A stretch of DNA of 64,000 nt. Origin: Halopseudomonas sabulinigri. Its GTDB lineage: Bacteria; Pseudomonadota; Gammaproteobacteria; Pseudomonadales; Pseudomonadaceae. The position numbers and the translations under genes are program-made. Positions 6,529 to 56,642 of the stretch are shown in pieces; positions within the stretch are counted from its first letter, which is position 1, and each line of letters starts with the position of its first letter. The stretch is taken from contig NZ_LT629763.1 of the NCBI RefSeq assembly GCF_900105255.1, positions 1,426,001 to 1,490,000 of the forward strand. The letters run 5' to 3'. Below the pieces are notes generated by a model. It saw only the letters and a program-made list of their open reading frames with translations. It was not told where the DNA came from and did not search any database.

Positions 6529-9402
6529 TCAGTCGTCCAGCAACCCCCAGCCGCGCAACTGGTCGATACAGGCCGGCACATCCACCTCATCCAGTTGCTC
6601 TGGCGCCAGGAAGCGCCGGCCGTATTGCAGGTGCACACCGGTACTCAGAAACAGCGCCAGCAGCCGCGCGTCCAAATGCTGATCGCGCGCCATGAACAGC
6701 ATGATGCGTACCGACTCAGAGAGCTTCTTGGCCTCCTTGTATGGCCGATCGGCTGCGGTCAGGGCTTCAAAGATGTCGGCGATGGCCAGCACCCTATCCT
6801 CCACCGACAACTGCTCGGCACTGAGGCGCCGTGGGTAACCGGTGCCGTCCAGCCGTTCGTGGTGCGTGGCAGCCAACTCCGGCACGCGCGCCAGCGCCTT
6901 GGGAAACGGCAGGGTCGATAGCATGATCAGCGTCTGCACTATGTGGTCGTTGATCTTGAAGCGTTCCTCCGCCGTGAGCGTGCCACGCGCGATCGACAGG
7001 TTGTACAGCTCGCCCAGGTTACTGCTATGGGCTGGCAGCTCCATATCAAAACCCCAGCGGTTGGCGGGGTCGTTCGCAGCGACCGGCGGCTTGCGCTCGC
7101 CCCAGGGCACCAGGTGTTCCGGGCGGTCCATCAGCAACTGCTCTTCGACCGGCAAGGCCGCCGCCGACACGCCGATCAATTGCTGCTGCTCATCGCCAGA
7201 CAAACCCAAGCGATTGTCGAAGTAACGTAACCAGGTTTGCTTGCCAATCACCTGCAACCGCTCCCTATCTTCCTGCGCCATGAATTCACCACCGGTGTTG
7301 GCCTTGGCGACCACCGCAAACTCCTCACGCAGGCGCGCCTGCTCGGCGTCACGCGTTTGCTGCAACACCGACTCATCCTCGCCCGCGGCGCGACCTTGCC
7401 AATAGCGAATATCGGCTTCGCGCCAGAGCACTTCAAAACGGGTGCGAATTTCATGAATGCGGTTGTACAGGGTTTCCAGCTTGGTGGCCTTATCGACGAC
7501 ATACTCCGGGCTGGTGATCTTGCCGCAGTCGTGCAGCCAAGCCGCGGTGCGGAAGGCGTAGCGCTGCTCCTGCGTCAATGCAAAGCTGGCAAAGGGTCCT
7601 TCCTCTGCCTGCTGTGCCTGCTCCAGCAGCATTTCCGCCAGCTGCGGCACGCGATCGCAATGGCCGCCGGTATAGGGCGACTTGGCGTCGATGGCTGACG
7701 CCAGCAGCCGGATAATCGATTCCAGCAGTAACTGCTGGTCGTCGAATAGCTGCCGGGTCTCAATGGCCACTGCCAGTGTGCCGGCCAGGCTGCCAAGGAA
7801 CTGGCGCAGGCTGCGCACCGCCTCATTGGTCAGCAGCGGCGAGACCTCTACCGCCAGCACCCCCTGCAGGTCGCCCTGGCGATCACGCAGAGCCAAGGTT
7901 AGGTAACGATGCTCGTCGTCCAGCTGGCTGGCCAGGCTGCGCGCCGGATCTTTTAGTCGCGCGTCGTCCAGCGGCACACTGCCCGGGTAATGCACCGGCC
8001 GGGTGTCGCCGGCGCAGCGCAACACGCCGTCATCCTCGTCATACAGATACACGGCGCCGCCCTGCCCACCGGCAATCGCGATCAGCTGTTCTAGCACCAA
8101 GTCCAGCATGCGCTCCAGATTGGTTTCTCGGCTGAGCGTCAGGGTGATGGTTTGAAAGCGGGCAATCGCCTTCGCCATGCGCGCAGTCATCTTGCTCAGG
8201 TCGTTTACCTCGCGGATGCGCGAACGCACGCCAATCGGGGCACTGAAATCGAACCCAGCGAGTTGTTCCACCTGATCGCCCAGCGACTTCAGCGGCTGGC
8301 CGAGCCGCTGTCCCAACGCCCAGCCAATAAGCAGCAGCAGCGCCGCCAGAGCAAATACCAGCCGCGCCTGGTCACGCAGCGTATCGCGCACCCCGGCCAG
8401 AAGTTCCTTGGCCGGCATGGCGATCAGAATACTGCCGGGATTGTTACCCACCTTGCGCAGCGGCAGATTCAGTACGTACCACTCCTGCCCCCCGAGCTCC
8501 ACTAACTGCGGCGTGCGCGCCTCAGCGGCCATATTGTGTGCCGCCTCCAGCACTGGGACCCCCAGCTCCGGCAACGTGGCCAACTGCAGACCCTCAGCGC
8601 CGTCGGTGACGATCCGCTGCAGATCGGTGTAGGCAATCACTTTGCCGCGCTCGCCCACCAACGCGATCTCGGTACCGGGTGTGAGTCGCAGATCATTTAC
8701 CTCGCCCGCCAAGTCTTGCAGTGACGCATCCAGGCCAAAGACCACACCGGCCGGATTGCGCCGCGCCATGGTCACGCCGATATTCCTGTTGGTAAAAAAC
8801 AGGTAGGGCTCGGTCAACACAATATCCGAGGCAGATTCCGCCAATTGATACCAGGGCCGCGTGCGGGGGTCGAACCGGTAATCACTGACCGCCACCTCTC
8901 GCAATGCCTCACCCTGGTTGTCATACGCCAGCCAGCGACCTTGCACGTTGGCGCCAGCCAGGTGCTCTATCGACTGCACCAGATAGGCGGTACCTCGGGG
9001 CAACTGCCGCCCGCCGGCCTGCAGGCCGGACTCAACGCGGCGTAGCAGGAAGAAGTCGCCATTCGGGTACCCGGCGTACACCGCGCTGAGCGTGCGGTTG
9101 CTGCGTAGCGTCTCGATCAGGACCGGCAGGCGTTGCAACCGCTGCTCCAGCGTATTGCTCTGAGCCAAAGGGTCGTAATTCAGAATACGCAGCGCACTTT
9201 CCGCCGGCCCCAACAAGCGCTCCGAACGCTCATTCAGCAACACTCCCAGCTGCTGCGCGGCATCATTGGCCGCCGCGATCAACAAGGTACGGGAGCCCCG
9301 GTAGCCTTGCCACACGGTCAAGCTGGCCATCGCCAGCAAACAGATCACCATCGACCAAGCGATCAACCACTGCAGACTGACGCTCGACTTCGTCTTTCCC
9401 AT
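6529..9402 (-). CDS. Cache-HAMP-GAF-HD-GYP protein, probable cyclic-di-GMP phosphodiesterase
   Basis: A 957-residue inner-membrane sensor. TM1 is at about 10-32, a periplasmic double-Cache-like domain to about 340, TM2 at about 347-364, then HAMP, a GAF domain (about 420-555) and an HD-GYP domain (about 565-930). The metal and signature residues are present: GHCDRV, HDCGK (about 624-628) and HHERLDGTGYP (from about 847). About 218 residues separate HDCGK from HHE, where canonical HD-GYP domains have roughly 60, so there is a large helical insertion. It should degrade cyclic-di-GMP and so favour motility. I start at ATG 9402; a GTG at 9414 sits inside the ribosome site. Confidence 0.87.
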   Translation of the reverse strand: MGKTKSSVSLQWLIAWSMVICLLAMASLTVWQGYRGSRTLLIAAANDAAQQLGVLLNERSERLLGPAESALRILNYDPLAQSNTLEQRLQRLPVLIETLRSNRTLSAVYAGYPNGDFFLLRRVESGLQAGGRQLPRGTAYLVQSIEHLAGANVQGRWLAYDNQGEALREVAVSDYRFDPRTRPWYQLAESASDIVLTEPYLFFTNRNIGVTMARRNPAGVVFGLDASLQDLAGEVNDLRLTPGTEIALVGERGKVIAYTDLQRIVTDGAEGLQLATLPELGVPVLEAAHNMAAEARTPQLVELGGQEWYVLNLPLRKVGNNPGSILIAMPAKELLAGVRDTLRDQARLVFALAALLLLIGWALGQRLGQPLKSLGDQVEQLAGFDFSAPIGVRSRIREVNDLSKMTARMAKAIARFQTITLTLSRETNLERMLDLVLEQLIAIAGGQGGAVYLYDEDDGVLRCAGDTRPVHYPGSVPLDDARLKDPARSLASQLDDEHRYLTLALRDRQGDLQGVLAVEVSPLLTNEAVRSLRQFLGSLAGTLAVAIETRQLFDDQQLLLESIIRLLASAIDAKSPYTGGHCDRVPQLAEMLLEQAQQAEEGPFASFALTQEQRYAFRTAAWLHDCGKITSPEYVVDKATKLETLYNRIHEIRTRFEVLWREADIRYWQGRAAGEDESVLQQTRDAEQARLREEFAVVAKANTGGEFMAQEDRERLQVIGKQTWLRYFDNRLGLSGDEQQQLIGVSAAALPVEEQLLMDRPEHLVPWGERKPPVAANDPANRWGFDMELPAHSSNLGELYNLSIARGTLTAEERFKINDHIVQTLIMLSTLPFPKALARVPELAATHHERLDGTGYPRRLSAEQLSVEDRVLAIADIFEALTAADRPYKEAKKLSESVRIMLFMARDQHLDARLLALFLSTGVHLQYGRRFLAPEQLDEVDVPACIDQLRGWGLLDD

Positions 9403-9608
9403 TACGTTACCCACTCCCTGTCAACATCGAACCTAGCTGGTCTTGAGAATAGCCTAGCCAAGCCGCCTGCGAGCAGCTTCGTAAACGTCAGTCACATCGA
9501 TTCGGCGCATGGCCGCTACTTCGGCTGGTGAATAGCCCAAGCACAGAGCAAGCCAACTGCCCGCGGTTTTGCCATAGTGTGGCCAGCAGACAACAGGGAG
9601 CACCCCCG

Positions 9609-10580
9609 ATGGATCAGTTCGAACACCAGATGATCCCCACCAACAACATCGAGCTCAGCCTTTACACCCTGGGGCCCAAAAGCGGCCGACCGGTATGGCT
9701 GCTGCACGGCTTTCCGGAATGCTGGTACTCCTGGCGCCATCAGACGCAGGCATTGGCGGCACAGGGCTACCGCGTGCACATACCCGAAATGCGCGGATAT
9801 GGCGCCAGCAGTGCACCCGAGGCAGTCGATCAATATGACCTGATCACTCTCTGCGCCGATATCCAGGGGGCGATGAATCACCTTGGCCACGAACAGGTGG
9901 CCATGATCGGCCACGATTGGGGCGCCCCGATCGCCTGGCACCTGGCATTACTGGAACCGGCGCGAGTCAAGGCAGTTTGCGGTATGTCGGTCCCCTTCGG
10001 CGGCCGCCCCCGGCAACCGGCGATCAACATGATGCGCGAAGCCTACAAGGATCGCTTTCACTACATCGTCTATTTCCAGCAGCCCGGCCTCGCCGAGGCC
10101 GAGATGGCCGCTGACATCCCCCGCACCATGCGCCTGATGATGCACGGATTGTCGGGCACCGACGGCGACAACTCGCTGGTGCAGGATAAACCGGCAGACT
10201 CGCGCTGGCTGGACGACTATATGGACCCCGGCACGCCGCCAGTCTGGTGCTCGGCCGAAGCCTTTGCGGTTTACGTGAAGACCTTCGAGCAGAGCGGCTT
10301 CCATGGCCCGATCAACTGGTACCGCAACTTCGAGCGCAGCTGGCAGCGCACCGAGGCGCTGGCCGGCAAACAGATTGAGCAGCCGGCACTGTTTCTGATT
10401 GGCGACCGGGACCCGGTCGGCACCCTGGAGGCCTACACCATCAAGAAAATGCCCAACGTAGTGCCCCGGGTAGAGCAACGTGTCATCGCCGATTGCGGCC
10501 ACTGGATTCAGGCAGAGAAGCCGGCAGAAGTGAACGCCGAACTGCTACCCTTTCTGGCACGACACTTTCCCGCTGGCTGA
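9609..10580 (+). CDS. Epoxide hydrolase-type alpha/beta hydrolase
   Basis: A 323-residue soluble enzyme. It has the oxyanion motif HGFPECWYSW, the Asp nucleophile in GHDWGA, a cap domain with candidate ring-opening tyrosines (FHYIVYFQQPG, INWYRNFERSW), an acid Asp in GDRDPVG and the catalytic His in GHWIQAEKP. An Asp nucleophile followed by Trp, with cap tyrosines, is the epoxide hydrolase pattern; a haloalkane dehalogenase is less likely. The start is the ATG after an AGGGAG site; upstream in-frame codons are unconserved. The next gene, 15 bases on, carries halohydrin dehalogenase motifs, which fits sequential haloalcohol-epoxide-diol chemistry. Confidence 0.87.
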   Translation: MDQFEHQMIPTNNIELSLYTLGPKSGRPVWLLHGFPECWYSWRHQTQALAAQGYRVHIPEMRGYGASSAPEAVDQYDLITLCADIQGAMNHLGHEQVAMIGHDWGAPIAWHLALLEPARVKAVCGMSVPFGGRPRQPAINMMREAYKDRFHYIVYFQQPGLAEAEMAADIPRTMRLMMHGLSGTDGDNSLVQDKPADSRWLDDYMDPGTPPVWCSAEAFAVYVKTFEQSGFHGPINWYRNFERSWQRTEALAGKQIEQPALFLIGDRDPVGTLEAYTIKKMPNVVPRVEQRVIADCGHWIQAEKPAEVNAELLPFLARHFPAG

Positions 10581-10595
10581 TATCGGAGCATCACC

Positions 10596-11276
10596 ATGGC
10601 CCTGTGCGACCTTACTGGAAAACGTATTCTGCTGACCCAGGCCGATGCCTTCATGGGCCCTGCCCTGCAGCAAACACTGCAGCGCCACGGTGCCGAGGTG
10701 GTTGCCGACACCCGCGACTTTCTGGACCCCAAGGCGCCGGAACAGCTGGTCAACGAGGTGGGCACAATTGATGTGCTGCTGCTCAACCTGGGCGTACCCG
10801 CGCCCAGCACCCCGGCCGCGCTGGTGGAAGATGACGAGTGGGGGCTGCTGTTTCGGCATATGGTCGACCCGCTACCGCGCTTTGCCCGCGCTCTGCTACC
10901 AATGATGACCGAGCGCCAGCATGGCAAGATTATCCTGATGGGCAGCGCCTCCGCACTGCGCGGCATGAAGCGTGCTTCCAGCTACAGCGCCGCCCGCGGC
11001 GCGCAGCTGGCCTGGGTGCAAGCGGTCGGCGCTGAAGTGGCGAGCAAGGGCGTGCAGGTCAACGCTATTGCGCAGAACTTCGTCGACAATCCGACTTACT
11101 TCCCCGCCGACATACAAGCCAATCCGGCCTTTCAGGCGCGCCTGCAACGCGAGGTGCCGCTGGGCCGCCTGGTCAGCGCCGAAGAAGACGCCAGCTTCGC
11201 CGCGTACCTGTGCAGCGATGCAGCCAATTGTTTTGTCGGTCAGATATTTCCGGTTTGCGGTGGCTGGAGCCACTGA
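10596..11276 (+). CDS. Putative halohydrin dehalogenase (SDR-related)
   Basis: 226 residues with an SDR-like fold but without the NAD-binding glycine motif. It carries the two signatures used to define halohydrin dehalogenases: T14-x4-F19-x-G21 for the nucleophile/halide site, and S117-x12-Y130-x3-R134 for catalysis. Arg replaces the SDR Lys. These enzymes open haloalcohols to epoxides or catalyse the reverse reaction with small anions; they use no nicotinamide cofactor. Length fits the family (about 225-255). It sits in an operon between an epoxide hydrolase gene and a hotdog protein gene. Base use matches its neighbours. The alternative is a degenerate SDR of other function; activity is inferred. 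Confidence 0.78.
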   Translation: MALCDLTGKRILLTQADAFMGPALQQTLQRHGAEVVADTRDFLDPKAPEQLVNEVGTIDVLLLNLGVPAPSTPAALVEDDEWGLLFRHMVDPLPRFARALLPMMTERQHGKIILMGSASALRGMKRASSYSAARGAQLAWVQAVGAEVASKGVQVNAIAQNFVDNPTYFPADIQANPAFQARLQREVPLGRLVSAEEDASFAAYLCSDAANCFVGQIFPVCGGWSH

Positions 11277-11302
11277 CACCCCTCTTCACTCAGGATCACA
11301 GC

Positions 11303-12025
11303 ATGCAGCAACGCGAACACATCATCAGTATCAGCTCACGCTTTTGCGGCCCTCCCAACAGTGGTAATGGTGGCTACGTTTCCGGCCTGCTAGCCAAGGC
11401 CATGGGCGTGCCCTGCCAGATCACACTGCACGCGCCGCCGCCACTGGATACCCCTCTGCAGCTATTGGCCAACGACGAGGGCGCCGAACTACGCTTGGGC
11501 GAGCAGCTACTCGGCAGCGCCAAGCCCCATGTGTTTGAGCTGAATTTACCCAGCGCGGTGGATGCGGCAACTGCGGCCCAGGCACAAGAGCGTTTTGAAG
11601 GCTTTGAACAGCACAACCTGCCGTGCTGCTTTGTCTGCGGCACCAACCGCGACCCCCTGGATGGCCTGCGCATTTTTGCCGGCCCGACCGAGCTGCGCGA
11701 CGAGCAGGTTGCCGCGCTCTGGACGCCGGACGATACGCTGACTGACGAGAGCGGTATGGTGAGCAGTGAATATCTCTGGGCAGCACTCGACTGCCCCGGT
11801 TACTTCGCGGTGCGCGGCCAGGCCGGTATAGCGCTGCTCGGGCGCTTTTCTGCCCACATCGAACAACCAGTACGCGCCGGCGAACCTCTGGTGGTGGCTG
11901 GTTGGGCGTTAGGCCACGATGGCCGCAAGCATTTTGCCGGCACCGCCCTGTATAACCAGCAGGGCGAGGCCGTGGCCTGGGCGGAGGCAACCTGGATCAG
12001 CCTGCAAAAGGCCGCCGCAGCCTGA
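11303..12025 (+). CDS. Hotdog-fold thioesterase-like protein
   Basis: 240 residues, third gene of the epoxide hydrolase operon (26-base gap). The N-terminal FCGPPNSGNGGYVSGLLA and the central CCFVCGTNRDPLDGLRI resemble the substrate-loop and CxxCG segments of double-hotdog PaaI-like thioesterase relatives, and the C-terminal LVVAGWALGHDGRKHFAGTA fits a hotdog beta sheet. The substrate is unknown. I start at the ATG at 11303 after AGGATCAC; the longer open frame overlaps the previous gene and is not conserved-looking. It ends 3 bases before the convergent speA stop, with no visible terminator. Confidence 0.6.
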   Translation: MQQREHIISISSRFCGPPNSGNGGYVSGLLAKAMGVPCQITLHAPPPLDTPLQLLANDEGAELRLGEQLLGSAKPHVFELNLPSAVDAATAAQAQERFEGFEQHNLPCCFVCGTNRDPLDGLRIFAGPTELRDEQVAALWTPDDTLTDESGMVSSEYLWAALDCPGYFAVRGQAGIALLGRFSAHIEQPVRAGEPLVVAGWALGHDGRKHFAGTALYNQQGEAVAWAEATWISLQKAAAA

Positions 12026-12028
12026 GTG

Positions 12029-13948
12029 CTATTCGGCGCTCAGGTAGGAAGAGCGCGTCAGCCCCAACCGCAGTGCATCGACAAAGCGGGTGCGCTCCGC
12101 GGGACTGAGCTTGGCGCCGGCCACCTTGTCACGATAGAGGGTAACCAGTTCATCCGGGGCAAAGTGCACGTAGCGCAGCATGTCCTCGATGGTGTCGTGG
12201 GTTTCGATACCGCCGTGCACCACCTTGCCATCGGGGCGCAGGTAAACATTGACCGAGTCGGTATCACCAAACAGGTTGTGCATGTCGCCGAGAATTTCCT
12301 GATAGGCACCGACCAGGAAAATCCCCAACAAGTAGTCCTCACCTTCGCGCAGCTCATGCACTGGCAGGCTATTCTCGATGCTTTGCTCATCCACGTAATG
12401 GCGGATCTTGCCATCGGAGTCGCAGGTCAGATCCTGCAGCACGGCGCGACGCAGCGGCTCTTCTTCCAGGCGGTCGAGCGGCATGATCGGCAGCACCTGA
12501 TCAATCGCCCAGGTGTCGGGCAGACTCTGGAAGACCGAGAAGTTGCAAATGTACTTGTCGGCCATCTTGTCGTTCAGCTCGTCCAACACCTGACGGTGCG
12601 AACGCTGGCGCGCCTTCAGCTGGGTGTGCAAGCGGTTACACAGGGCGAAGTAGCACTGCTCGGCGAGCGCCTTTTGCGACAGCGTCAGCTTGCCCTCGGC
12701 ATACTGCGCCGCGACGTCGGCCATATAGTGTGTGGCGCGCCAGTAGGTCTCGGTGACCATTTCAATATCGTGCTGGTCCTGCAGACCAACCAGGTTGCGC
12801 ACCACCTGGGGCAATTCGTCCAGATTGTCGATTTCCGGCAGCACGTCGTTGTAGCGCTCTACATCGGTGACTTGCACCACCAGTACGGCGTGATGCGCGG
12901 TCATCGCCCGGCCGCTTTCGGAGAAGATGTGCGGGTGCGGCAGACCCTGCTCGTCGCAGAAGTCCTTGAGCATGCCAACCACCGTCTGCGCGTATTCCCG
13001 GACGTCATAGTTGATCGAGCTGGCATTGCGAGAATGGGTGCCATCGTAATCGACGCCCAAACCGCCACCCACGTCGATGTGATCGACCGGCAAACCCAGC
13101 GCGCGCAGCTCGCCAAAATAGCGAATCGCTTCACGAAAACCATGTTGGTAGTCCGCCAGGTTGGCGATCTGCGAGCCCATGTGAAAATGCAGCAACCGCA
13201 CGCCATCCTGCAAACCAGCCGCGGTGAAGGCATCGACCACGCGCAACAGTTGCGCCGCCGACAGACCGAACTTTGACTTCTCCCCGCCAGTGTCAGCCCA
13301 TTTGCTGGAGGCCAGCGACGACAAGCGCACACGCAGCCCCACCTGCGGCGTGACACCCAGCTTCTCGGCCTCCTCAATCACCAGGCGTACTTCAGACTCT
13401 TTCTCGATGACGATAAAGACCTTGTGCCCGAGCTTCTGACCAATCAACGCCAGATGAATGAACTCGCGATCCTTGTAGCCGTTACAAACAATGGTTCCGC
13501 CCTTGGGCGCCAGCGCCAGCACTGCCATCAGCTCTGGCTTGGAGCCGGCTTCAAGACCAATGGAGACGTTGTCGGTAGCGATGATGTTCTCGACCACGGT
13601 CTCCTGCTGATTGACCTTGATCGGGTAAAGCGCGGTGTAGCCGCTGTCGTATTCCAGCGCCGCAATGCTCTGATCGAAGGCGCCGGTCAGTTGCTTGACC
13701 CGCGATTGCAGAATATCGGGGAAGCGCACCAGCAACGGCAAATCCAGCCCGCTGTCACGCAGCTGGCCGACCAGCTCATGCAGATCAATACTGCCGGCCT
13801 CTGCTCCGCGCGGCATGACCTCAACGTGCCCAGCGTCACTGACGTTGAAATAGCCCGCACCCCAATGCCGAATGCCGTACACACTGCGGCTGTCCGCCAC
13901 TGTCCAGGCTGATGCATCTTCCTTGCGTGAACGCCGTACTGGGCCCAT
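12029..13948 (-). CDS. speA: Biosynthetic arginine decarboxylase
   Basis: 639 residues, the usual SpeA length, of the fold-III PLP decarboxylases. It converts arginine to agmatine, the first step of the agmatine route to putrescine and spermidine. Recognisable segments are [13 protein letters not shown] near the N terminus, YPIKVNQQ with the PLP-binding Lys, [30 protein letters not shown] and the C-terminal active-site region [12 protein letters not shown]. The ATG at 13946-13948 has a GAGG site. It is convergent with the hotdog gene and divergent from rhlG. Confidence 0.95.
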
Positions 13949-14201: not shown

Positions 14202-14972
14202 ATGCAGCAGTATTTCAGCCTGGCGGGGCGCACCGCACTGGTAACCGGCGGCAGTCGCGGCATCGGCCGCATGATCGCGCAGGGCTATCTCGAGGCCGGC
14301 GCCAAAGTCATCATCTGCTGCCGCAAACTGGCCGAAGGCCAGCAAACTGCGCAGGAACTGAGCCAGTACGGCGAGTGCATCGCCATTGGTGCCGACCTGT
14401 CCAGCGAGGCCGGCGCCAAGCAGTTGGCTGCCGACGTTGCCGAGCACACCGACCATCTTGATATTCTGGTGAACAACGCAGGTACCAGCTGGGGCGCGCC
14501 GCTGGAAGACTTCCCGGTTTCCGGCTGGGAAAAGGTGATGCAGCTCAACGTTGTCTCGGTGTTCAGCTGCATCCAGCAGCTGTTGCCCATGCTGCGCAAT
14601 AACGCCAGCGCAGAGAACCCCGCGCGCGTCATCAACATCGGCTCGGTAGCCGGCATCAGCTCCTTTGGTGAAGAAGCCTACTCCTACGGCCCCAGCAAGG
14701 CGGCAGTGCATCAGCTCTCGCGCAATCTGGCGCGTGAACTGGTGAGCCAGCACATCAACGTCAACGTGATCGCGCCCGGACGTTTCCCCAGCAAGATGAC
14801 CCAGCACATTCACCAAGACGCTGCCGCGATGGCGGAAGATTGCCAGCATATCCCGATGAAGCGCTGGGGCCGCGAAGAAGAGATGTCGGCGCTCGCCATC
14901 ATGCTCGCCAGCGCCGGCGGCGCGTACATGACCGGCAACGTCATCCCGATCGACGGTGGCTTCACCCTCTAA
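14202..14972 (+). CDS. rhlG: RhlG-type NADPH-dependent short-chain reductase
   Basis: 256 residues, the same length as P. aeruginosa RhlG and closely similar along its whole length (YFSLAGRTALVTGGSRGIGRMIAQG, NNAGTSWGAPLE, ASAENPARVINIGSVAGIS, YMTGNVIPIDGGF). It is a classical SDR with TGGSRGIG for cofactor, NNAG, catalytic Ser in INIGSVAG and Y-x3-K in YSYGPSKAA. RhlG reduces beta-ketoacyl substrates in vitro; a role in rhamnolipid or PHA precursor supply was proposed but is disputed, and no rhl genes are present here. Ribosome site is GAGGAG. Confidence 0.88.
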   Translation: MQQYFSLAGRTALVTGGSRGIGRMIAQGYLEAGAKVIICCRKLAEGQQTAQELSQYGECIAIGADLSSEAGAKQLAADVAEHTDHLDILVNNAGTSWGAPLEDFPVSGWEKVMQLNVVSVFSCIQQLLPMLRNNASAENPARVINIGSVAGISSFGEEAYSYGPSKAAVHQLSRNLARELVSQHINVNVIAPGRFPSKMTQHIHQDAAAMAEDCQHIPMKRWGREEEMSALAIMLASAGGAYMTGNVIPIDGGFTL

Positions 14973-15504: not shown

Positions 15505-16026
15505 TTGGCTTCCATAAACGCGACACTCCGCCAGCCCACCGCTGCGGACGGCTTTGCTCTGAATCAGCTGGTTGCACGTTGTCAGCCGCTGGATACCAAC
15601 TCGGTCTACTGCAATTTATTGCAGTGTGCGGATTTCGCGGACACCGCGATCGCTGCCGAGACAGATGATGGTGATTTGGTCGGATTCATATCCGGCTATC
15701 GCCCCCCGGCCCGCCCCGACACCTTGTTCGTGTGGCAGGTCGCCGTAGACAGCCGCATGCGCGGTCAGGGTCTGGCGCTGAAGATGCTGCTCGCTTTGGT
15801 CGAGCGCACTCGCGCCGCTGGCGTCACCCGATTGGAGACGACCATATCCCCTGGCAACGACGCATCAGAGGCGCTGTTCAAAAAAGCCTTCCGCCTGTTG
15901 GGCGCTGAATACACCACTGAAGTGCTGTTCTCTCGCGAGACGCATTTCAACGGACAGCACGACGACGAAGTTATCTACCGTGCTGGACCCTTTACTCAAT
16001 CAACTACTCAATCAGCTCACGCTTGA
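15505..16026 (+). CDS. ectA: L-2,4-diaminobutyrate N-acetyltransferase
   Basis: 173 residues, a GNAT acetyltransferase making N-gamma-acetyl-2,4-diaminobutyrate, the second step of ectoine synthesis. The core is very similar to known EctA: NQLVARCQPLDTNSVYCN, GFISGYRPPARPDTLFVWQV, the acetyl-CoA loop MRGQGLALKML, and ETTISPGN. The start appears to be TTG at 15505 with AGGGA seven bases before it; no in-frame ATG exists nearby upstream. First gene of ectABCD-ask; ectB follows after 14 bases. Confidence 0.95.
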   Translation: MASINATLRQPTAADGFALNQLVARCQPLDTNSVYCNLLQCADFADTAIAAETDDGDLVGFISGYRPPARPDTLFVWQVAVDSRMRGQGLALKMLLALVERTRAAGVTRLETTISPGNDASEALFKKAFRLLGAEYTTEVLFSRETHFNGQHDDEVIYRAGPFTQSTTQSAHA

Positions 16027-16040
16027 GACCAGGAGAAATC

Positions 16041-17327
16041 ATGAACAATTTCGAACAGTTCGAGAAAAACGAATCCGACATTCGCAGCTATTGCCGCTCG
16101 TTCCCGGTCATCTTCAACCAGGCGCAGGGCGCGGAGCTGGTCACCACCGAAGGCAAGCGCTACATCGACTTTCTGGCCGGTGCCGGCACGCTGAATTACG
16201 GGCACAACCACCCCGTACTGAAAAAAGCATTGATTCAGTACCTGGAAGAGGACGGCATCACCCATGGCCTGGATATGTACTCGGCTGCCAAGGAACGTTT
16301 TCTGGAGACCTTCAACCGGGTCATCCTTGAGCCCCGTGGCTTCGCCAACTACAAAATCCAGTTCAGCGGCCCGACCGGTGCCAATGCGGTAGAAGCCGCA
16401 CTCAAGCTGGCCCGCAAGGTGACTGGTCGCAGCAACATCATCAGCTTCACCAACGGCTTCCATGGCTGCACCATCGGTGCGCTGGCGGCCACCGGTAACG
16501 GTCATCACCGTGGCGCTGCTGGCGTGCCGCTGACCGATGTCAGCCGTATGCCTTACGCCAACTACTTTGGCGACAACGTCAATACCATCTCGATGATGGA
16601 TAAGCTGCTGAGCGACCCGAGCAGCGGCATCGACAAGCCCGCAGCGGTTATCGTTGAGGTCGTGCAGGGTGAAGGCGGCCTGAACGCTGCTTCAGCGGAG
16701 TGGATGCGCAAGCTTGAGAAGCTCTGCCGCAAGCATGAAATGCTGCTGATCGCCGACGACATCCAGGCAGGTTGTGGCCGCACCGGTACTTTCTTCAGCT
16801 TTGAAGAAATGGGTATCAAGCCGGACATCATCACTATGTCCAAGTCATTGAGCGGCTTTGGTCTGCCCTTTGCCATCGTGATCATGCGCAACGAGCTGGA
16901 CCAGTGGGAGCCAGGTGAGCACAACGGTACTTTCCGTGGCAACAACCACGCCTTTGTCACCGCCGCCGCCGCGCTGGAACACTTCTGGACCAACGATGAG
17001 TTCGCGAAGAGCGTGCAAGCCAAGGGCAAGCTGATCAAGGAACGCATGCAGAAGATCGCTCGCAAGCATGGCCCCGACTCCCTGTTCGTCAAAGGTCGCG
17101 GCATGATGGTCGGCATCAGCTGCCCCAATGGCGAGATTGCTTCCGCCATCTGTAAAGAAGCCTTTGCCAACGGCTTGGTTATCGAAACGAGCGGTAATCA
17201 CAGCCAGGTCGTCAAATGCCTGTGCCCACTGACCATTACCGACGAGCAGATCGACAAGGCCCTGACTATTCTGGACGCGGCCTTTGCCAAGGTCATGGCT
17301 GAAGACATCGCCAACCAGGCTTCCTGA
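16041..17327 (+). CDS. ectB: Diaminobutyrate-2-oxoglutarate transaminase
   Basis: A 428-residue class III PLP aminotransferase that makes 2,4-diaminobutyrate from aspartate semialdehyde using glutamate as amino donor. Visible are the start [35 protein letters not shown], the PLP-stacking region TNGFHGCT, the Asp in [13 protein letters not shown] and the Schiff-base Lys in [11 protein letters not shown]. Length fits EctB. It starts at the ATG after AGGAGA; the open frame upstream is only six codons longer. Confidence 0.96.
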
Positions 17328-38723: not shown

Positions 38724-39746
38724 TTAGATCATCTCCTCGCCACCCTTGCCACCGAGCACGATTTCGCCAGCGTCGGCCATGCGTCGGGCAATGGTAAGAA
38801 TCTCTTTCTGCGCGGCTTCCACCTCGCTGATGCGCACCGGCCCCTTGGCTTCCAGGTCGTCCTGCAGCAGTTCGGAGGCACGCTTGGACATATTGCGGAA
38901 AATCTTTTCCTTGATGTCATCGTCGGCGCCCTTGAGCGCGACAATCAACACTTCAGACGACACCTCGCGCAGCAGCGCCTGAATACCGCGATCGTCGACC
39001 TCGGACAGGTTGTCGAAAACAAACATGAGATCCTCGATCTTCGAGGACAAATCCTCGTCCATCTCGCGAATGGCCTCGATCAATTGCGATTCGGTGCTGG
39101 ACTCGAGGAAGTTCATGATGTCGGCAGTACGCTTGATGCCGCCCATATTGGCCCGCGTGGTGTTGGAGTTGCCGGCAAACTGCTTCTCCAGAATCTCGTT
39201 CAGCTCCTTCAGCGCTGAAGGCTGAACGGTGTTCAGCGAGGCCACCCGCAGCAACACATCCAAACGCACCTTGTGGTCGAAATAGCCTACCACCTCCGCG
39301 GCCATATCCGGGTCGAGGTAGGCCACCACAATCGCCTGGATCTGCGGGTGCTCGTAACGAATGACATCGGCAACGGCGCGCGGCTCCATCCACTTCAGGC
39401 TGTCCAGCCCGGAGGTGCTGCCGCCGAGCAGAATGCGATCAACCAGGCTGTTGGCTTTGTCTTCGCCCAGCGCCTGGGTCAGCATGGTCCGAATATAGCC
39501 GTCGGCACCCACGCCGAGGCCGGTCTGATCGCCGACCACTTCGATGAAGTCGCCCATGACCTCCTGTACCTGCTCACGATGCACCGTGCGCAGCCCGGCC
39601 ATGGCACTGCCGACGCGCTGCACTTCCTTTGGCCCCATGTGCTTGAGAATGGCGGCAGCGTCTGACTCACCCAGGCTGAGCAAAAAAATGGCGGCCTTGT
39701 CCAGACGGGACAGTTTCGGCGGGCGCTTGCTGGCTTCTTCACTCAT
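38724..39746 (-). CDS. fliG: Flagellar rotor switch protein FliG
   Basis: 340 residues, all-helical. The N-terminal FliF-binding part (LSRLDKAAIFLLSLGESDAAAILKHMGPKEVQRV), the middle EHPQ motif (IRYEHPQIQAIVVAYL) and the C-terminal torque helix (FDNLSEVDDRGIQALLREVSSEVL, KGADDDIKEKIFRNMSKRA) are all present. It contacts the stator directly. Overlaps fliF by 8 bases. Confidence 0.96.
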   Translation of the reverse strand: MSEEASKRPPKLSRLDKAAIFLLSLGESDAAAILKHMGPKEVQRVGSAMAGLRTVHREQVQEVMGDFIEVVGDQTGLGVGADGYIRTMLTQALGEDKANSLVDRILLGGSTSGLDSLKWMEPRAVADVIRYEHPQIQAIVVAYLDPDMAAEVVGYFDHKVRLDVLLRVASLNTVQPSALKELNEILEKQFAGNSNTTRANMGGIKRTADIMNFLESSTESQLIEAIREMDEDLSSKIEDLMFVFDNLSEVDDRGIQALLREVSSEVLIVALKGADDDIKEKIFRNMSKRASELLQDDLEAKGPVRISEVEAAQKEILTIARRMADAGEIVLGGKGGEEMI

Positions 39747-41454
39747 CGGCGTTAATCCACTCTTTTACGACTTGCGCCACGCGACCAGGATCTTCGGCTA
39801 ACAGGCCCTTGATGGCGTTCAACTGCTGTTCATAACCGGCGCCCGGTGGCGGCAACAGCACCGGCGCTGAAGCCGGACCGGACAAGCTTACCTGATCAGG
39901 ACTCAGCTCATCCTCCAGTCCGCCGCCAGCACCACCCGGCATGGAGGCTGGGTAGCCACCCTCGCCGCTGCCACGATTGGCTACCGTCAAATTTTTCAGT
40001 GCCGGGCGCAGTACCGCGAACACCAGAATCAGTACAAAAAGGATACCCAGAATCTGCTTGGCCACATCCCAGAACCAGGGCTGCTCCCAGAACGGAATGT
40101 CTGGCAGCGGCTCGGCAGCGGCTTGCGCAACAAAGGCGCTGTTGATCACGCTGACGCTGTCACCCCGACTAGCATCAAAACCGACGGCATCCTGCACCAG
40201 GCGGGTCAAGCGCGCAATCTCTGCCTCGCCCAGAGGGGTACGGGTGACCTCACCGGTTTCCGCGTTCACTTCTGACGGGTCGTCCACCACCACCGCAACA
40301 GACAGGCGGCGCAGGCGGCCCTGCTGCTGGCGCGTGTGACTGATCTGGCGGTCCAGTTCATAGTTACGGGTCGCCTGCTCACGGGTATCTTTCGGCACCA
40401 CTGGCGCGGCGGCCTGGCCGGTGGCCGGGTCAATCGCCTGCTCAGGCGCCTGGCCGGCGGCCGGCGGCTGGTTGGACAGCGCACCGGGAATACCCACCGG
40501 GCCGGTACTGCCACTGCGCTGCTCACTGACTACCTGCTCGCTACGCAGCGCCGCTTCAGGGCTATACATTTCTGCGGTGGACTCGACCGCGCTGAAGTCC
40601 ACGTCTGCCGAGACCTCGGCCTTGTAACGGCCTTCACCGAGCACTGGCTGCAGAATGTTGTGCACGCGACGGGTATAGGTGTCTTCTACGCGGCGAGTGT
40701 AATCGAACTGACGGCCGGCGACGGTCAGCTCATTCAGCTCGTTCTGATTGGACAACAGATTGCCGTTCTGGTCGACAACGGTCACGTCATCCTTGCCCAG
40801 TTCAGGCACACTGGTCGCCACCAGATTGACAATCGCCATCACCTGGGCAGGTTCCAGTCGACGGCCGGCATACATCTCCAGCAGCACCGAGGCGCTGGGC
40901 TTGCGCTCATCGCGCACAAATACGGTGGAGCGCGGAATCGCAATATGCACCCGCGCATTCTTGACGTTATACAGGCTGGAGATGGTCCGCGCCATTTCGC
41001 CTTCCAGGCCACGGCGGTAGCGGGTGGTTTCCATGAACTGGCTGGTACCCAGGCCCTGCTCACGATCGAGAATTTCAAAACCCAGATTGCCATCGGTCGG
41101 CGCGATACCCGCGCTGGCCAGGCGCATGCGCGCATCGGCAAGGTCTTCGGTACGAACCAGCAAGGCGCCGCTATTGGGCTCGACTTTATAATCAATACGG
41201 CTCTGCTGCAGCATGTCCACCACTTGGGCGGCGTCATAGCCTTCCATGCTGTTGTACAGCGGGCGATACTCGGCTTCCTGCGACCAGAGCACGACAGCAA
41301 AACCAATCGCCACACTGGCAGCCAGCCCCACCAGCAGTCCGAACTGCCTGAGCATCGGCAGCTGCGCCAGATTGTCCAGAAAGGTCAACCCCATCAGCGG
41401 CTTGCGATCAGCCTCCAATTGGCTCTGGGTAGCGGGGGTGTTGGCGGATTCCAT
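39739..41454 (-). CDS. fliF: Flagellar MS-ring protein FliF
   Basis: 571 residues. TM1 at about 36-56 (FGLLVGLAASVAIGFAVVLW), ring-building motifs (QEAEYRPLYNSMEGYDAAQVVDML, GNLGFEILDREQGLGTSQFMETTRYRRGLEGEMART), TM2 near 455-475 (ILGILFVLILVFAVL) and the C-terminal FliG-binding tail (LLAEDPGRVAQVVKEWINADE). The MS ring is the first basal-body structure. 38 bases after fliE. Confidence 0.96.
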   Translation of the reverse strand: MESANTPATQSQLEADRKPLMGLTFLDNLAQLPMLRQFGLLVGLAASVAIGFAVVLWSQEAEYRPLYNSMEGYDAAQVVDMLQQSRIDYKVEPNSGALLVRTEDLADARMRLASAGIAPTDGNLGFEILDREQGLGTSQFMETTRYRRGLEGEMARTISSLYNVKNARVHIAIPRSTVFVRDERKPSASVLLEMYAGRRLEPAQVMAIVNLVATSVPELGKDDVTVVDQNGNLLSNQNELNELTVAGRQFDYTRRVEDTYTRRVHNILQPVLGEGRYKAEVSADVDFSAVESTAEMYSPEAALRSEQVVSEQRSGSTGPVGIPGALSNQPPAAGQAPEQAIDPATGQAAAPVVPKDTREQATRNYELDRQISHTRQQQGRLRRLSVAVVVDDPSEVNAETGEVTRTPLGEAEIARLTRLVQDAVGFDASRGDSVSVINSAFVAQAAAEPLPDIPFWEQPWFWDVAKQILGILFVLILVFAVLRPALKNLTVANRGSGEGGYPASMPGGAGGGLEDELSPDQVSLSGPASAPVLLPPPGAGYEQQLNAIKGLLAEDPGRVAQVVKEWINADE

Positions 41455-51459: not shown

Positions 51460-54400
51460 CTAGGGCAGCCATGCCTCACGCCAACGTTCAAGCCCTTCAC
51501 CGTCAAGCATCCAGGCAGTTTTCACCGCTTGGTGCAAATCACGCCCCTGTGCGGCAGAGGCTGCAGGCTCTGCCAAGTGCGCACGTACCGCATCCATCCA
51601 GTCACGATAACGATTTTTGACCCGCGTTACGGGCAGCGTGCCCGCGTAACAGCGCACATCGGAACAGATGACTGGATAAGAGCAGGCACCGTACTCCAGC
51701 AAACGCAGATTACTTTTGCACTCGTTGAACAGATGCTCCTCAACCGGGGCGAGCGCCAAATCCAGATTGAGCGAAGCCAGTTTCCGAGGATATTTTTCAA
51801 TGCTCACCCCCTCATGAAACTCGTGTACGTAAGGACGAAGCTTTTCCGGACACATGCCCAAAAAAACCCATTCGACTTCATCGGCGAGATCTTTCACCAG
51901 ATCAAAAATCAGCTCAAGATCCCCGGTATGACTGGCACCCCCTGCCCACCCTACTCTCGGCTTGGTCGATGCATTGCGAACTGAAGGCGGCAGGTTGCCC
52001 CACCAACGCGGATCAAGCCGGTTATGTACCACCTGAATGTCGTCATGAAAGCCAGTAAATGCCTCAGCCAGGGCATCTGTGGAGACGACAAAGCGATCAA
52101 CAAACGACAACCCGCGCTTCAATGATTTGACGATATCTTTGGGCATCGCATTACGGTGTGCATTTTTCATTGGCAAGTTGGGCAGATAGTCATCCAGCTC
52201 ATAGACTTTAAAAGCACTGGAGAAAGCCTTCATACGACGCATGGCTTCCAGCCGGTCATCACCTATCTGCCGCTGTAGCACCACGACATCCGGCGCATAG
52301 CGTTCAAGATCAGTAACATGCATCAAGCCTTGGGATAGAGCTCCGTCCACTAGCCCTGCACTGAGCAGCGCGTTAAATGGTTGAATAACGCGATAGTGAC
52401 CACAACCGAACAAATCGGCCGGATGGGCCAGCACTACCGGCTGAGGACGCCACACTTCGAGAGGACGCCAGGAAATCTGCGGCGCCGCCAGTTTGAAACC
52501 GCCAGGCTTAGCCAGCGAGAAATTGGGATTGTAAGCAGGATCGCGTGCCAGCCGCGCCAGCCAACGTGCGTATAACTTATCCTCCGTATCCACCGTCATA
52601 CTTGGCTTGGGCGTACTGTGAAGCAGGGTCGCCCTGGGAGTCCAAACAATAATGTAGCCGCTATCGGTGACACGCAGGCACAGGTCCAAGGCTGCTCCTT
52701 CGTCGGCAAAGGCACCCGCGTCCAGACCACCAAGGTCAATGTAAAGCGACTTTCTTATCAACAGGCATTTGCCGGAAACAGCGCTAACGTTTCGATCAAC
52801 CTGGAGTCGCTGCATATAGCCGGGCGCTCCCAGCGGCTCGCCAAGAAAAACTTCGCCTGCGGGGCCCTCAAGACCCAGAACCTGCCCGGCATGGGTAATC
52901 TTGCCCTCGGCATTAACGGTGCATAGACCCACAACGCCGACCTCGGGTCGCTGCGCGTGATTCATCAGCTCATCCAACCAGCTGTCGTTGATTACCGCCA
53001 CATCGGGGCCTAGCAAAAATAAATAGTCACCGCTTGCGTTGAGCGCAGCCTGGTTATTCGCATCGCTTTGGCTTAAACGCTCCGCCGAGCGCAATACCTT
53101 GACCAAAGCAGTGTCCATTTGCTCCAGCGCGGCCAGCCAGTCAAGCGTCGCACCCTCGCGGCTAGCGTTATCGATCAGCAAAATCTCGTAGCGCCCGTAT
53201 GCTGTGTTCTCGAGCACACTCATGACACAACGTTGCGCGGCAGCCAGCTCATCGCTGACCAGTATCACAATGGACACCAGCGGAGTCTCTGCATGACCGT
53301 AGTCAATCTGATACTGACCGGGAAGGACGCTTTTTACCGACGCCTGCGGGTAACCTCTGGCCGCCAGATGCGTTTTGATGACTGAGCGCTCTAGCTCGGA
53401 ATCGCGTAGCACCAACGCCTGACTCAACACCAAGGGCTCTGGAACATGACCCAATCCGGTCAAGCCATGTTGATTTACCAACCGCAGTATCAGGTCGAGC
53501 TCCATAGCCTCGCCGGTCTGCGCGTCAAAACCACCAAGGCTCAACAGATTCTCGCGATTAAATAACCAATGCTGGGACATCCCCTGCGGGAAGCTCAACA
53601 GATAATCGAGATTGAAGTCGGGGCGCAGCGCCAATCCATAATCGGCGTCATCTTGACGGTATAAGCCATCAGCGTAGATAGCTCGACAATCAGGGTTAGC
53701 CTGCAGCTCAAGCGACACCATTTGCAAACCGCTGGAAGCAAACTCATCACCCGCCCTGCACAGCATGACCCAGTCAGCAGAAGCTGAGGCAAGCGTATTG
53801 TTTAGCTCATCTATCCAAGTGTGCTTATCAACCTGCCGCCACTGCCCATCATGTCCCACCGGCGGCGCCGCAACACTGAACACCAGCGATGAGACATTGG
53901 GCACCTCCAGCTCGAGCTGAAAGGAGTTAAGGCTTTGAGTCACGGCTGAAAGGTCGCCATCAAGGTCAATAATGACGGCCATCAGCTGACCTGCTGATGC
54001 CTCTTGCTGCTGGGTATAGTCCCTCACGAGACGCTGCTGAATTGGTGTCAACTTGCGCGCAGCAAGCCACGTTCGCACGGGTCTGGGATCGCCCTTGGCG
54101 ACAACACCCAGAGAACGCAGCTGGTTTGAGCGTCCTTCGCGGACCCGCTTGCTGCCAAGATCCGAATGGCGGCGGTAGATTTCCTGGTAAAGCTCGGCGT
54201 AGTTTTTAGAAGCCTGATCGGATCTGCGTTCTGCACTCTCGTCAGCCGCGCGCATTCTGACTTCAACAGTGGTGCGCGGCAGATGCACGAAATCTGAGCG
54301 TGCCGCCAAGCGCAAAAGGAAATCCCAGTCTTCTAGGCCGGACAATGCTTCATCAAAATCACCGACCTCCATAGCAAGCCTTCTTGAGCAGGCAAAAGTG

Positions 54401-56514
54401 TTGACCGGAATGTAGTTGTCGACAAAAAACTGTTCTTTTGAGTAGGCAACGTGATCGTAGCGATGATCTCTGGCCAACTCGATACGGGCGCCCTGTTCCA
54501 GCTTCTCGGTAATGAACACCGCGTCGGAGTACACAATGGCGTCAGGATGGCTTTCAAGGGCGGTAGCAAGCGACTGTAGGTGGTCCGGCAGGAAGATGTC
54601 ATCATCGTCCAGAAAAGCAAGATAGCGACCTTTCGCCAGCCGCAACGCCGCATTACGAGCGGCAGCCGGACCTTTATTGGCACCCTGACGCAGGTAGGTC
54701 AGAGGGAAATCAAAACCATCAAGTAACGATTCGACAGGCTCGCCGTGATCATTGACCAGAATGACCTCAAAGTCGTGCAGCGTTTGTGCAGCGATACTGC
54801 GCAATGCATCCAGCAGCATGGCTGGGCGATTGAAGGTTGTGAGGACGATGGAAAACAGAGCCTGCTCATCAAGATCAGCCAACGCCTCAAGATTTTGACA
54901 CAGCTCATCAACTCGCAATCCTAGAGACGAAGATTGTTCACTTGGATACAACCTGAGGCGCCGGCGCAGATGCGCAGCCACCGCGAGCTCAAAACCCCGC
55001 AACTTACTCTCCGCGCCACGCTCGAAAACCCCTTCGACCAAGCGTATATGGTCAGCAAGCGGGGCATTGGAAGAGTAGAACTCGGTCGAGAGCTGCGCGG
55101 AGTGGGTTCGATAGGTGACCCCTGGCTCACTTAGAAAAATGAAATCGGGGTGCTTCTCGGCCACCTGCACCATCGAAAGCCAGTCACCCGCGCCATTAAG
55201 CCTGGGGTCTCTGCGCCAAACCTGCAGAAAGGGCTCTCGCTGGATCAGCGTAGCAGAAGGCGGAATGTAGCTGTCGTAAATCAACAGATCCGCGACCTCG
55301 TTGCGGCCACCAATATAGTCCTGCTTCTTGTATCCCGGATGCCTGGGCACAGTGAGCCCACGTCCCTGCTCATTGACCCAGCGGATCGAGGTATAACCAA
55401 CAACTACATGCGGATTTTCCAGCATGCGTGGCATCAGGCTAGAAAGGTAGCCAGGATTGTAATAATCGTCTGCCATCAGGAGCGACAAGTAACGCCCCTG
55501 CGCAATCTGGATTCCGTTAAGTACGTTGTAGCTGGGACCTACATTGCGTGCATTCCTGAAATAACGCACACGAGGCTCTTTCGCAAACGAGCGCAGAACC
55601 TTAGGAGTGTTGTCGGTAGAGGCGTTATCGAGAACCAGGACCTCGATATCTGCATAGCACTGATCCAATACCGACGAGATGGTTTGGTTCAGAAACCGAC
55701 CATAGTTGTAGGCAGGAATGATGACACTGAGCAGCGGCCGGGTGTCGCGAACTGCAGCGGCATCACCCGCGATGGCAGCCGTTAGCGCGGTAACCCAGCA
55801 ATCACTTGAGTAGGGATAGCTGGTCTTGTTGTTCAAGAACGCGTGCAGCGCCTCAGCAGCTGCCTGGACGCGGGTGTTGCAGTAATCCTGCAGTGTTGGC
55901 TGACCATTAAATTCATGCGCATCAATGTAGCTACCCTGCGGGATCCACTCGGGAACCGGCCAGGTGCCAAGGTGCACCGGAACGCGACCAGCTGCCAGGC
56001 AGTCGCACCATTGCTGCGGGAGCAAGCCCGGCAGTTCAGGCACCTCATCGCAGAGTAACCATTCCTGCAGGGCGGCTGGCGATGCGGGCAGGCTGAGCGG
56101 CTGGTTCAGCGAAACCAGTTGGCCATCGGTAAATGGCTCGCCGAGAGGCAGAAAGATACGTGAGAACGACGCTTCATGCTCGGGGGCCAAGCGTGCCTGA
56201 CTACCCCGCAGCAATAGGTACTGCCGAAGCTGCGAGTCTAGGCCGTTCAGAGGTTGTCCGGGTTCATCGTTCAGCACCAGCAACAACGCGTCATGATCAA
56301 TATTGTCGCTGTGCAATATCGGCTCGAAGATCAACCCATTGGCGTCGGCGTAAGCTTTGAGCTGGTGCCAAGGCAGTTGGCGCATGAGGTCACGCCAGAA
56401 TACGTCACTGAGAACGAAGGGCCGACCCGGGTCATCACGTGTAATGCCTGCGATCCCGACTCGCCATGGCTTGCCTAAGCACCGGCCTCCAGCCATCAAA
56501 TCACGCTCGATCAT
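51460..56514 (-). CDS. Giant multidomain glycosyltransferase
   Basis: 1684 residues. After an N-terminal region of about 260 residues that I do not recognise come GT2 domain A (about 262-480, LLSVIIPAYNYGRFLNQTISS, metal DD at about 350), GT2 domain B (about 553-760, FSIVLTTFNRPAMLLDALRS, FLDDDDIFLP), a degenerate GT2-like segment (about 845-1050), GT2 domain D (about 1080-1310, LVSIVILVSDELAAAQRC, LLGPDVAV) and a C-terminal GT-B/GT4-like domain (about 1360-1680, FGCGHYRVIQPFNALLS, NECKSNLRLLEYGACSYPVICSD). Soluble. It lies next to fliC in an operon of sugar genes, so it likely builds a multi-sugar flagellin glycan. ATG 56514 after AAGGAGG. Confidence 0.88.
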   Translation of the reverse strand: MIERDLMAGGRCLGKPWRVGIAGITRDDPGRPFVLSDVFWRDLMRQLPWHQLKAYADANGLIFEPILHSDNIDHDALLLVLNDEPGQPLNGLDSQLRQYLLLRGSQARLAPEHEASFSRIFLPLGEPFTDGQLVSLNQPLSLPASPAALQEWLLCDEVPELPGLLPQQWCDCLAAGRVPVHLGTWPVPEWIPQGSYIDAHEFNGQPTLQDYCNTRVQAAAEALHAFLNNKTSYPYSSDCWVTALTAAIAGDAAAVRDTRPLLSVIIPAYNYGRFLNQTISSVLDQCYADIEVLVLDNASTDNTPKVLRSFAKEPRVRYFRNARNVGPSYNVLNGIQIAQGRYLSLLMADDYYNPGYLSSLMPRMLENPHVVVGYTSIRWVNEQGRGLTVPRHPGYKKQDYIGGRNEVADLLIYDSYIPPSATLIQREPFLQVWRRDPRLNGAGDWLSMVQVAEKHPDFIFLSEPGVTYRTHSAQLSTEFYSSNAPLADHIRLVEGVFERGAESKLRGFELAVAAHLRRRLRLYPSEQSSSLGLRVDELCQNLEALADLDEQALFSIVLTTFNRPAMLLDALRSIAAQTLHDFEVILVNDHGEPVESLLDGFDFPLTYLRQGANKGPAAARNAALRLAKGRYLAFLDDDDIFLPDHLQSLATALESHPDAIVYSDAVFITEKLEQGARIELARDHRYDHVAYSKEQFFVDNYIPVNTFACSRRLAMEVGDFDEALSGLEDWDFLLRLAARSDFVHLPRTTVEVRMRAADESAERRSDQASKNYAELYQEIYRRHSDLGSKRVREGRSNQLRSLGVVAKGDPRPVRTWLAARKLTPIQQRLVRDYTQQQEASAGQLMAVIIDLDGDLSAVTQSLNSFQLELEVPNVSSLVFSVAAPPVGHDGQWRQVDKHTWIDELNNTLASASADWVMLCRAGDEFASSGLQMVSLELQANPDCRAIYADGLYRQDDADYGLALRPDFNLDYLLSFPQGMSQHWLFNRENLLSLGGFDAQTGEAMELDLILRLVNQHGLTGLGHVPEPLVLSQALVLRDSELERSVIKTHLAARGYPQASVKSVLPGQYQIDYGHAETPLVSIVILVSDELAAAQRCVMSVLENTAYGRYEILLIDNASREGATLDWLAALEQMDTALVKVLRSAERLSQSDANNQAALNASGDYLFLLGPDVAVINDSWLDELMNHAQRPEVGVVGLCTVNAEGKITHAGQVLGLEGPAGEVFLGEPLGAPGYMQRLQVDRNVSAVSGKCLLIRKSLYIDLGGLDAGAFADEGAALDLCLRVTDSGYIIVWTPRATLLHSTPKPSMTVDTEDKLYARWLARLARDPAYNPNFSLAKPGGFKLAAPQISWRPLEVWRPQPVVLAHPADLFGCGHYRVIQPFNALLSAGLVDGALSQGLMHVTDLERYAPDVVVLQRQIGDDRLEAMRRMKAFSSAFKVYELDDYLPNLPMKNAHRNAMPKDIVKSLKRGLSFVDRFVVSTDALAEAFTGFHDDIQVVHNRLDPRWWGNLPPSVRNASTKPRVGWAGGASHTGDLELIFDLVKDLADEVEWVFLGMCPEKLRPYVHEFHEGVSIEKYPRKLASLNLDLALAPVEEHLFNECKSNLRLLEYGACSYPVICSDVRCYAGTLPVTRVKNRYRDWMDAVRAHLAEPAASAAQGRDLHQAVKTAWMLDGEGLERWREAWLP

Positions 56515-56642
56515 GCCCACCCTCCTTCTCTAAACCCCTGGAAAGGCATCCCTGCAAGTGACGTCGCCACGAGCCGAATGCCTTCAACCAAATACGCATC
56601 CACACCATTCAAGAAAGCATTCCATATCGGCGGGATGCTCAC
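56511..56642 (-). CDS. Possible 43-residue small protein coupled to both neighbours
   Basis: The gap between the pyruvyl transferase and glycosyltransferase genes is fully open in one frame. GTG at 56640-56642 overlaps the upstream stop (GTGA) and the TGA at 56511-56513 overlaps the downstream ATG (ATGA). The product begins MSIPPIWNAFLNGVDAYLVE and ends GMPFQGFREGGWA; its middle is hydrophobic with amphipathic character. No family is recognised. Codons such as ATA, TTG and AGA are rarer here than in neighbouring genes, so it may be a remnant or only serve translational coupling. Confidence 0.5.
   Translation of the reverse strand: MSIPPIWNAFLNGVDAYLVEGIRLVATSLAGMPFQGFREGGWA

Follow-up and report, generated by a model that had tools for sequence, protein, structure and literature searches.

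A D-type halohydrin dehalogenase gene next to an epoxide hydrolase gene in Halopseudomonas: a probable route from haloalcohols to diols

Introduction

What do halohydrin dehalogenases (HHDHs) do in the bacteria that encode them? The physiological role of most of these enzymes is still open, and few cases are known in which the gene is linked to one for an epoxide hydrolase (EH). A first-pass annotation of a 64,000-nucleotide stretch of the Halopseudomonas sabulinigri genome (hereafter the window; the genome is a single contig of 4.03 Mb) proposed such a pair, followed by a gene for a hotdog protein as a possible third partner. The locus thus raises the questions of whether the pair is correctly named, whether it would turn haloalcohols into diols, and whether the hotdog protein belongs with it.

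Results

The locus and its epoxide hydrolase

Reading of the open reading frames placed all three genes within the range that the first-pass annotation had given (Table 1). The three lie on the same strand with gaps of 15 bp (EH to HHDH) and 26 bp (HHDH to hotdog), a GGAG site precedes the HHDH start, and EH and HHDH presumably share one transcript. A promoter scan of the divergent intergenic region found no sigma-70 consensus.

Table 1. Features of the three-gene locus and its flanks, in window positions.
Feature	Position	Strand	Basis
HD-domain protein, divergent, upstream flank of the trio	6529-9414		PF13487
Divergent intergenic region 5' of EH, presumed operon promoter region	9415..9608	.	
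Epoxide hydrolase (EH), alpha/beta hydrolase, EphA/sEH-like, 323 aa	9609..10580	+	ATG 9609, PF00561, PDB matches, motifs
D-type halohydrin dehalogenase (HHDH), 226 aa	10596..11276	+	ATG 10596, motifs, NPTYFP loop, tree, model
Double-hotdog TesB-like protein, 240 aa	11303..12025	+	ATG 11303, predicted fold
Arginine decarboxylase-like (SpeA) gene, convergent, downstream flank	12029-13948		named by reading only

The EH carries HGFPE at residue 33, GHDWG (D103), Y152, NWYRN (Y238), D268, and CGHW (H298), and so has the Asp nucleophile, two cap tyrosines, Asp-His relay, and HGxP motif of the alpha/beta-hydrolase EHs; by comparison with soluble EH, we take D103 to be the nucleophile, Y152 and Y238 the cap tyrosines, and D268 and H298 the relay. 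Its best PDB match is mycobacterial EphA (5cw2, E 5.4e-80), followed by mammalian soluble EH (E ~1e-63), and with both it has near-full-length similarity and common catalytic residues; to our knowledge, neither of these systems has an HHDH partner. The claim that the neighbor of the HHDH is an EH with an Asp nucleophile and cap tyrosines is thus supported by a complete predicted catalytic set as well as by these matches. HGFPE, GHDWG, NWYRN, and CGHW are found in all 35 orthologues read from the genus, and strict patterns recovered the first cap tyrosine in 26/35 and the acid in 30/35, the remainder being judged by pattern alone. We also considered a haloalkane dehalogenase, which both cap tyrosines and the similarity to EphA and soluble EH rule against; three NCBIfam haloalkane dehalogenase models score far under their cut-offs.

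Assignment of the 226-residue protein to subtype D

The first-pass annotation described the second product as an SDR-like protein with T14-x4-F19-x-G21 and S117-x12-Y130-x3-R134 but without the SDR glycine motif, and proposed that it is an HHDH. The description is accurate: T-x4-F/Y-x-G (T14, F19, G21) stands where SDRs have their glycine motif, and S-x12-Y-x3-R (S117, Y130, R134) has Arg instead of Lys, which are the two family fingerprints as defined in PMC4989007 and PMC11976700. Of the 81 D-type sequences available, 50 were aligned: all have F19, G21, S117, Y130, and R134, and at least 90% have T14. Both motifs occur in all 22 Halopseudomonas HHDHs and in 79 of 80 relatives from genome contigs, among which motif 1 was partly selected because TQADAFMG was one of the search patterns. 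The sole exception among the 80, a relative from Plasticicumulans acidivorans (L020:9998-10666), carries Leu where motif 1 calls for Thr, a site for which PMC11976700 mentions two natural variants.

Searched against the PDB with phmmer, the protein has its best match in HheD2 (7b73, E 2.2e-94), and at E ~2e-94 this resemblance is not chance; next come 8xxb (E 7.2e-86) and HheB (4zd6, E 9.2e-49), with 6a41, 7wkq, 8h8y, and FabG chains lower. Identity is 63-64% to HheD2, 61% to HheD8, and 41% to HheB, and the fold, both motifs, the catalytic triad, and the NPTYFP loop are common to the window HHDH, HheD2 (7b73), and HheD8 (8xxb), across 61-64% identity. An AlphaFold model (pLDDT 83, pTM 0.83, with pLDDT below 50 at residues 119-124 beside the catalytic Ser, 188-190, and 222-226) retrieved HheD2 first in Foldseek (7b73, E 8e-28, 63% identity, TM 0.89), then 8xxb, an HheD8 mutant with chloride (61% identity), and later HheB (5e-19) and the first NAD-dependent SDR (7e-16). 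Structural modeling, proposed in the first-pass annotation as a check for a halide pocket in place of an NAD site, therefore fits HheD2, HheD8, and HheB ahead of any SDR. As to the pocket itself, the sequence and the ligand-free model match chloride-bound HheD8, with residues 119-124 beside the Ser weakly modeled.

The placement outside NAD-dependent SDRs that the same annotation anticipated is recovered in a tree of 105 rows with HheA2, HheB, HheC, two D-types, and 6a41 as references (none of them named as type E, F, or G); one row, L108_SDR, is a wrong-frame artefact of 103 aa. The window HHDH falls in an 18-row Halopseudomonas clade (96/96) inside a D-type group with HheD2, a group separate from seven Halopseudomonas FabG-like SDRs and from the SDR that the window itself encodes at 14202. 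SAR92/Porticoccaceae loci group with HheD2. With midpoint rooting, HheA2, HheC, and 6a41 fall next to the SDRs, and HheB joins 8xxb; very long branches lead to HheA2, HheB, HheC, 6a41, and the SDR of the window, and with such branches the HHDHs are not recovered as a single group. A second, quick tree was built on 93 rows, after removal of all eight other-genome SDR rows (L108 included), the window's SDR, HheA2, HheC, and 6a41; it kept the 18-row clade at 87. The HHDHs of genomes G019, G026, G027, and G031 (65-67% identity) fall outside that clade in the 105-row tree; a separate acquisition of these unlinked genes is not supported, since a single clade for all 22 gave p-AU 0.65. Judged from its sequence, the protein is an ordinary member of subtype D, and the assignment to the HHDHs made in the first-pass annotation agrees with the motifs, 63% identity to HheD2, the tree, and the model.

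A proposed route from haloalcohol to diol

We consider it probable, at roughly 0.78, that the D-type HHDH turns a haloalcohol into an epoxide and that the adjoining EphA-type EH opens the epoxide to a diol. In the first step, Tyr130, its pKa lowered by Arg134, would take the proton of a vicinal haloalcohol held by Ser117, and the resulting alkoxide would displace the halide into a predicted pocket, lined by F19 and situated where SDRs bind NAD, to give the epoxide. The EH, with Asp103 as nucleophile, Tyr152 and Tyr238 as acid, and His298 and Asp268 as charge relay, would then open the reactive epoxide; formation of the diol would pull the reversible first step forward and clear a toxic intermediate. 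This scheme builds on family, motifs, fold match, gene order, and purifying selection, from which the activities, co-transcription, and direction are deduced. We infer that a natural (marine) haloalcohol may be the in vivo substrate of the HHDH. Against the pathway, the 2-haloacid dehalogenase model TIGR01428 scores below cut-off in the host genome. The same type II haloacid dehalogenase model passes its cut-off in 3/37 genomes of the genus (G018, G009, and G035), all of them HHDH carriers.

The HHDH gene sits 3' of a resident EH gene

Across 37 Halopseudomonas genomes (cut-offs of at least 65% identity for HHDH and at least 64% for EH), HHDH was found in 22 and EH in 36, among them every one of the 15 genomes in which HHDH was not detected (one of these EHs partial), and the EH therefore has an HHDH-independent job. 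Genome completeness bears on two cases: no EH was found in G026 (81% complete), and G023 (83% complete) has a partial EH at a contig end, its lack of HHDH being unsure. In 17 of the 22 carriers, the EH gene immediately precedes HHDH, with gaps of -4 to 69 bp (four genomes with a 4-bp overlap); the two genes are 2.1 kb apart in G016, and the EH lies elsewhere in G019, G027, and G031. For seven genome pairs, dN/dS by a simple counting method, with dS saturated in several pairs, is 0.03-0.09 for EH, 0.04-0.10 for HHDH, and 0.06-0.18 for hotdog; at such low ratios, all three look like functional genes under purifying selection.

The EH region could be compared in 12 of the 15 HHDH-less genomes. 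EH lies between the same neighbors (a small gene, g6075, and SpeA) in nine of these loci, and the EH locus is therefore resident, with HHDH sitting 3' of it. Among the exceptions, L171 stops at a contig end and L174 (G022) has only the HD-domain gene in view. In L182 (G036), EH, hotdog, and SpeA are all retained, and a chemoreceptor-like gene lies between EH and hotdog on the opposite strand. Two loci (L172 and L173) have YhhQ-like and LigB-like genes between EH and SpeA, and in L188 HHDH lies between EH and a YhhQ-like gene (all named by reading, without a family search). On an unrooted EH tree of 35 genomes, the HHDH state changes at least four times.

D-type HHDHs beyond the genus

Among the 80 relatives of the HHDH, a relative of the EH adjoins it only in 12 Halopseudomonas-type loci. 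None lies next to HHDH in the other 68 by blastp at E 1e-8 (a search over many short contigs, missing other EH families), and three of these have weak EH matches (29-32%) 3-8 kb from HHDH; HheD2-like SAR92/Porticoccaceae loci, unlike the window, have no linked EH of its kind. With EH linkage confined to 12/80 loci, most D-type HHDHs therefore seem to function with no such EH linked to them. Nor was any neighbor common to D-type HHDHs generally seen in the 80 loci, many of them on short contigs and with genes called by a simple ORF rule. No close relative above 60% identity was found in 353 plasmid records (E 1e-15), the best match being 45%.

This distribution bears on a different reading, in which the natural job of the HHDH is the reverse or another reaction, the opening of metabolic epoxides by anions such as chloride, cyanide, or nitrite, and the EH serves as a parallel route for the same epoxides. 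HHDH reactions are reversible and promiscuous, the EH occurs without HHDH, outside the genus no EH-like neighbor is common to the 80 relatives, and PMC4989007 allows for other HHDH functions, given how few of the genes are found beside one for an EH. However, an EH encoded 15 bp away would remove the epoxide, and the conserved EH-HHDH order suits the forward pathway better. We regard this reading as unlikely and favor the route from haloalcohol through epoxide to diol.

Nine Porticoccaceae/SAR92-type loci (L018, L022, L032, L036, L043, L053, L074, L076, and L079) have a GNAT acetyltransferase-like gene directly upstream of HHDH on the same strand (e.g., L022:9510-10004, with HHDH at 10001) and, beyond it, a RadA-like gene on the opposite strand, both named by reading; the acetyltransferase-HHDH order is another conserved HHDH context, free of EH. 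D-type HHDHs also recur in Competibacteraceae, Azonexaceae, and Zoogloeaceae (e.g., L010, L016, L020, L028, and L040, and further L044, L052, L058, L068, and others), families that include many PHA accumulators, and no neighbor common across these loci was seen.

The hotdog protein as a frequent neighbor

The third protein matches no Pfam or NCBIfam family at E 0.001 and, by sequence, has only a weak PDB match (1ixl, E 0.011). A model built from nine sequences (pLDDT 78.4, pTM 0.77) resembles TesB-type acyl-CoA thioesterases in Foldseek (best 4r9z, E 7e-9, TM 0.61, rmsd 6.1), with 10-16% identity to the top thioesterase structures. The hotdog label is thereby borne out as a predicted double-hotdog, TesB-like protein. 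The gene is present in 24/37 genomes and directly downstream of HHDH in 12/22 (gaps of 7-118 bp, starts approximate); in the other carriers, it is about 1 kb off in G006, elsewhere in seven, and not found in two. The three-gene operon that the first-pass annotation suggested looking for in the genus therefore recurs in part, EH being upstream in 17/22 but hotdog directly downstream in just 12/22, and the hotdog protein stands as a frequent neighbor rather than a proven third partner. On the modeled fold, we see it as a probable accessory thioesterase-like gene, often but not always linked to HHDH.

It is improbable, in our estimate, that the resident EH locus, the D-type HHDH, and often the hotdog gene form a unit for marine halohydrins, possibly CoA- or fatty-acyl-bound bromohydrins; if they did, such a dedicated unit would give HHDHs a natural, non-xenobiotic physiological role. 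A pathway of all three genes, in which the hotdog thioesterase would act on CoA-bound halohydroxy-, epoxy-, or dihydroxy-acyl products from halogenated or epoxy fatty acids, appears quite improbable. The predicted TesB-like fold and the 12 direct linkages speak for it, as does the occurrence of hotdog in 20/22 genomes with HHDH vs 4/15 without (Fisher p 9e-5, on raw counts with kinship ignored). With relatedness counted, however, no trend appears: two independent pairs lie on supported branches and four exist in all, so few that no test of co-occurrence is feasible. Hotdog also lies away from HHDH in 7 of the 20 genomes with both, and a sample of 369 genomes from the class has HHDH (E 1e-60) in five and hotdog (E 1e-5) in seven, both together only in the window's genome, so that hotdog is found in six others and in none of the four other HHDH carriers. 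That the 226-residue protein is instead an ordinary NAD(P)-dependent SDR whose motif has degenerated is hardly credible. Pfam (adh_short_C2/adh_short, above cut-off) and the listed NCBIfam matches (all SDR models, below their cut-offs) would point that way, but the PDB matches, the tree, and Foldseek, together with motif 1 and the Arg motif, ruled it out.

Discussion

Neither the two enzymes nor the pairing of HHDH with EH is new, and HHDHs from this lineage have been published before. In Agrobacterium radiobacter AD1, the HheC gene lies in an operon with an EH gene, and PMC11976700 gives joint haloalcohol detoxification as the predicted function; the arrangement is like that of the window, and HheC is of another HHDH subtype. 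Closer is HheD12 of Halopseudomonas (Pseudomonas) pelagia CL-AP6, with homologues in every marine species of the lineage sequenced by that time, except one (PMC6922532). The CL-AP6 locus in our set (L008), whose HHDH is presumably HheD12, given the name of the strain, belongs to the same clade as the window HHDH, in the P. pertucinogena lineage; its HHDH is 74-75% identical to that of the window and likewise has the EH directly upstream, and unlike in the window, hotdog is not beside it. According to a 2016 review, only two HHDH genes were then known in an operon with EH (PMC4989007), and HheD12 could be one of them.

We found no description of a Halopseudomonas HHDH-EH operon in the open-licence literature; the one open-licence paper that mentioned Halopseudomonas as well as epoxide hydrolase, PMC13234336, deals with PET-degrading enzymes. 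What is new is modest: how the HHDH-EH pair is kept and rearranged across one genus. Since 17/22 carriers keep the pair and relatives hold the EH locus without HHDH, the genus offers a comparative and genetic test of whether HHDHs take part in marine haloalcohol breakdown. HHDH and EH may also serve as biocatalysts.

Elsewhere in the window, a second, classical SDR (14202-14972; best NCBIfam match gluconate 5-dehydrogenase, below cut-off) is followed by EctA- and EctB-like ectoine synthesis genes (15505-17327, named by reading), and this order recurs in many loci of the genus. An open reading frame of about 1,685 aa (51460-56520, minus strand) has three family-2 glycosyltransferase stretches and lies about 10 kb from a FliF-like flagellar gene (39739-41454).
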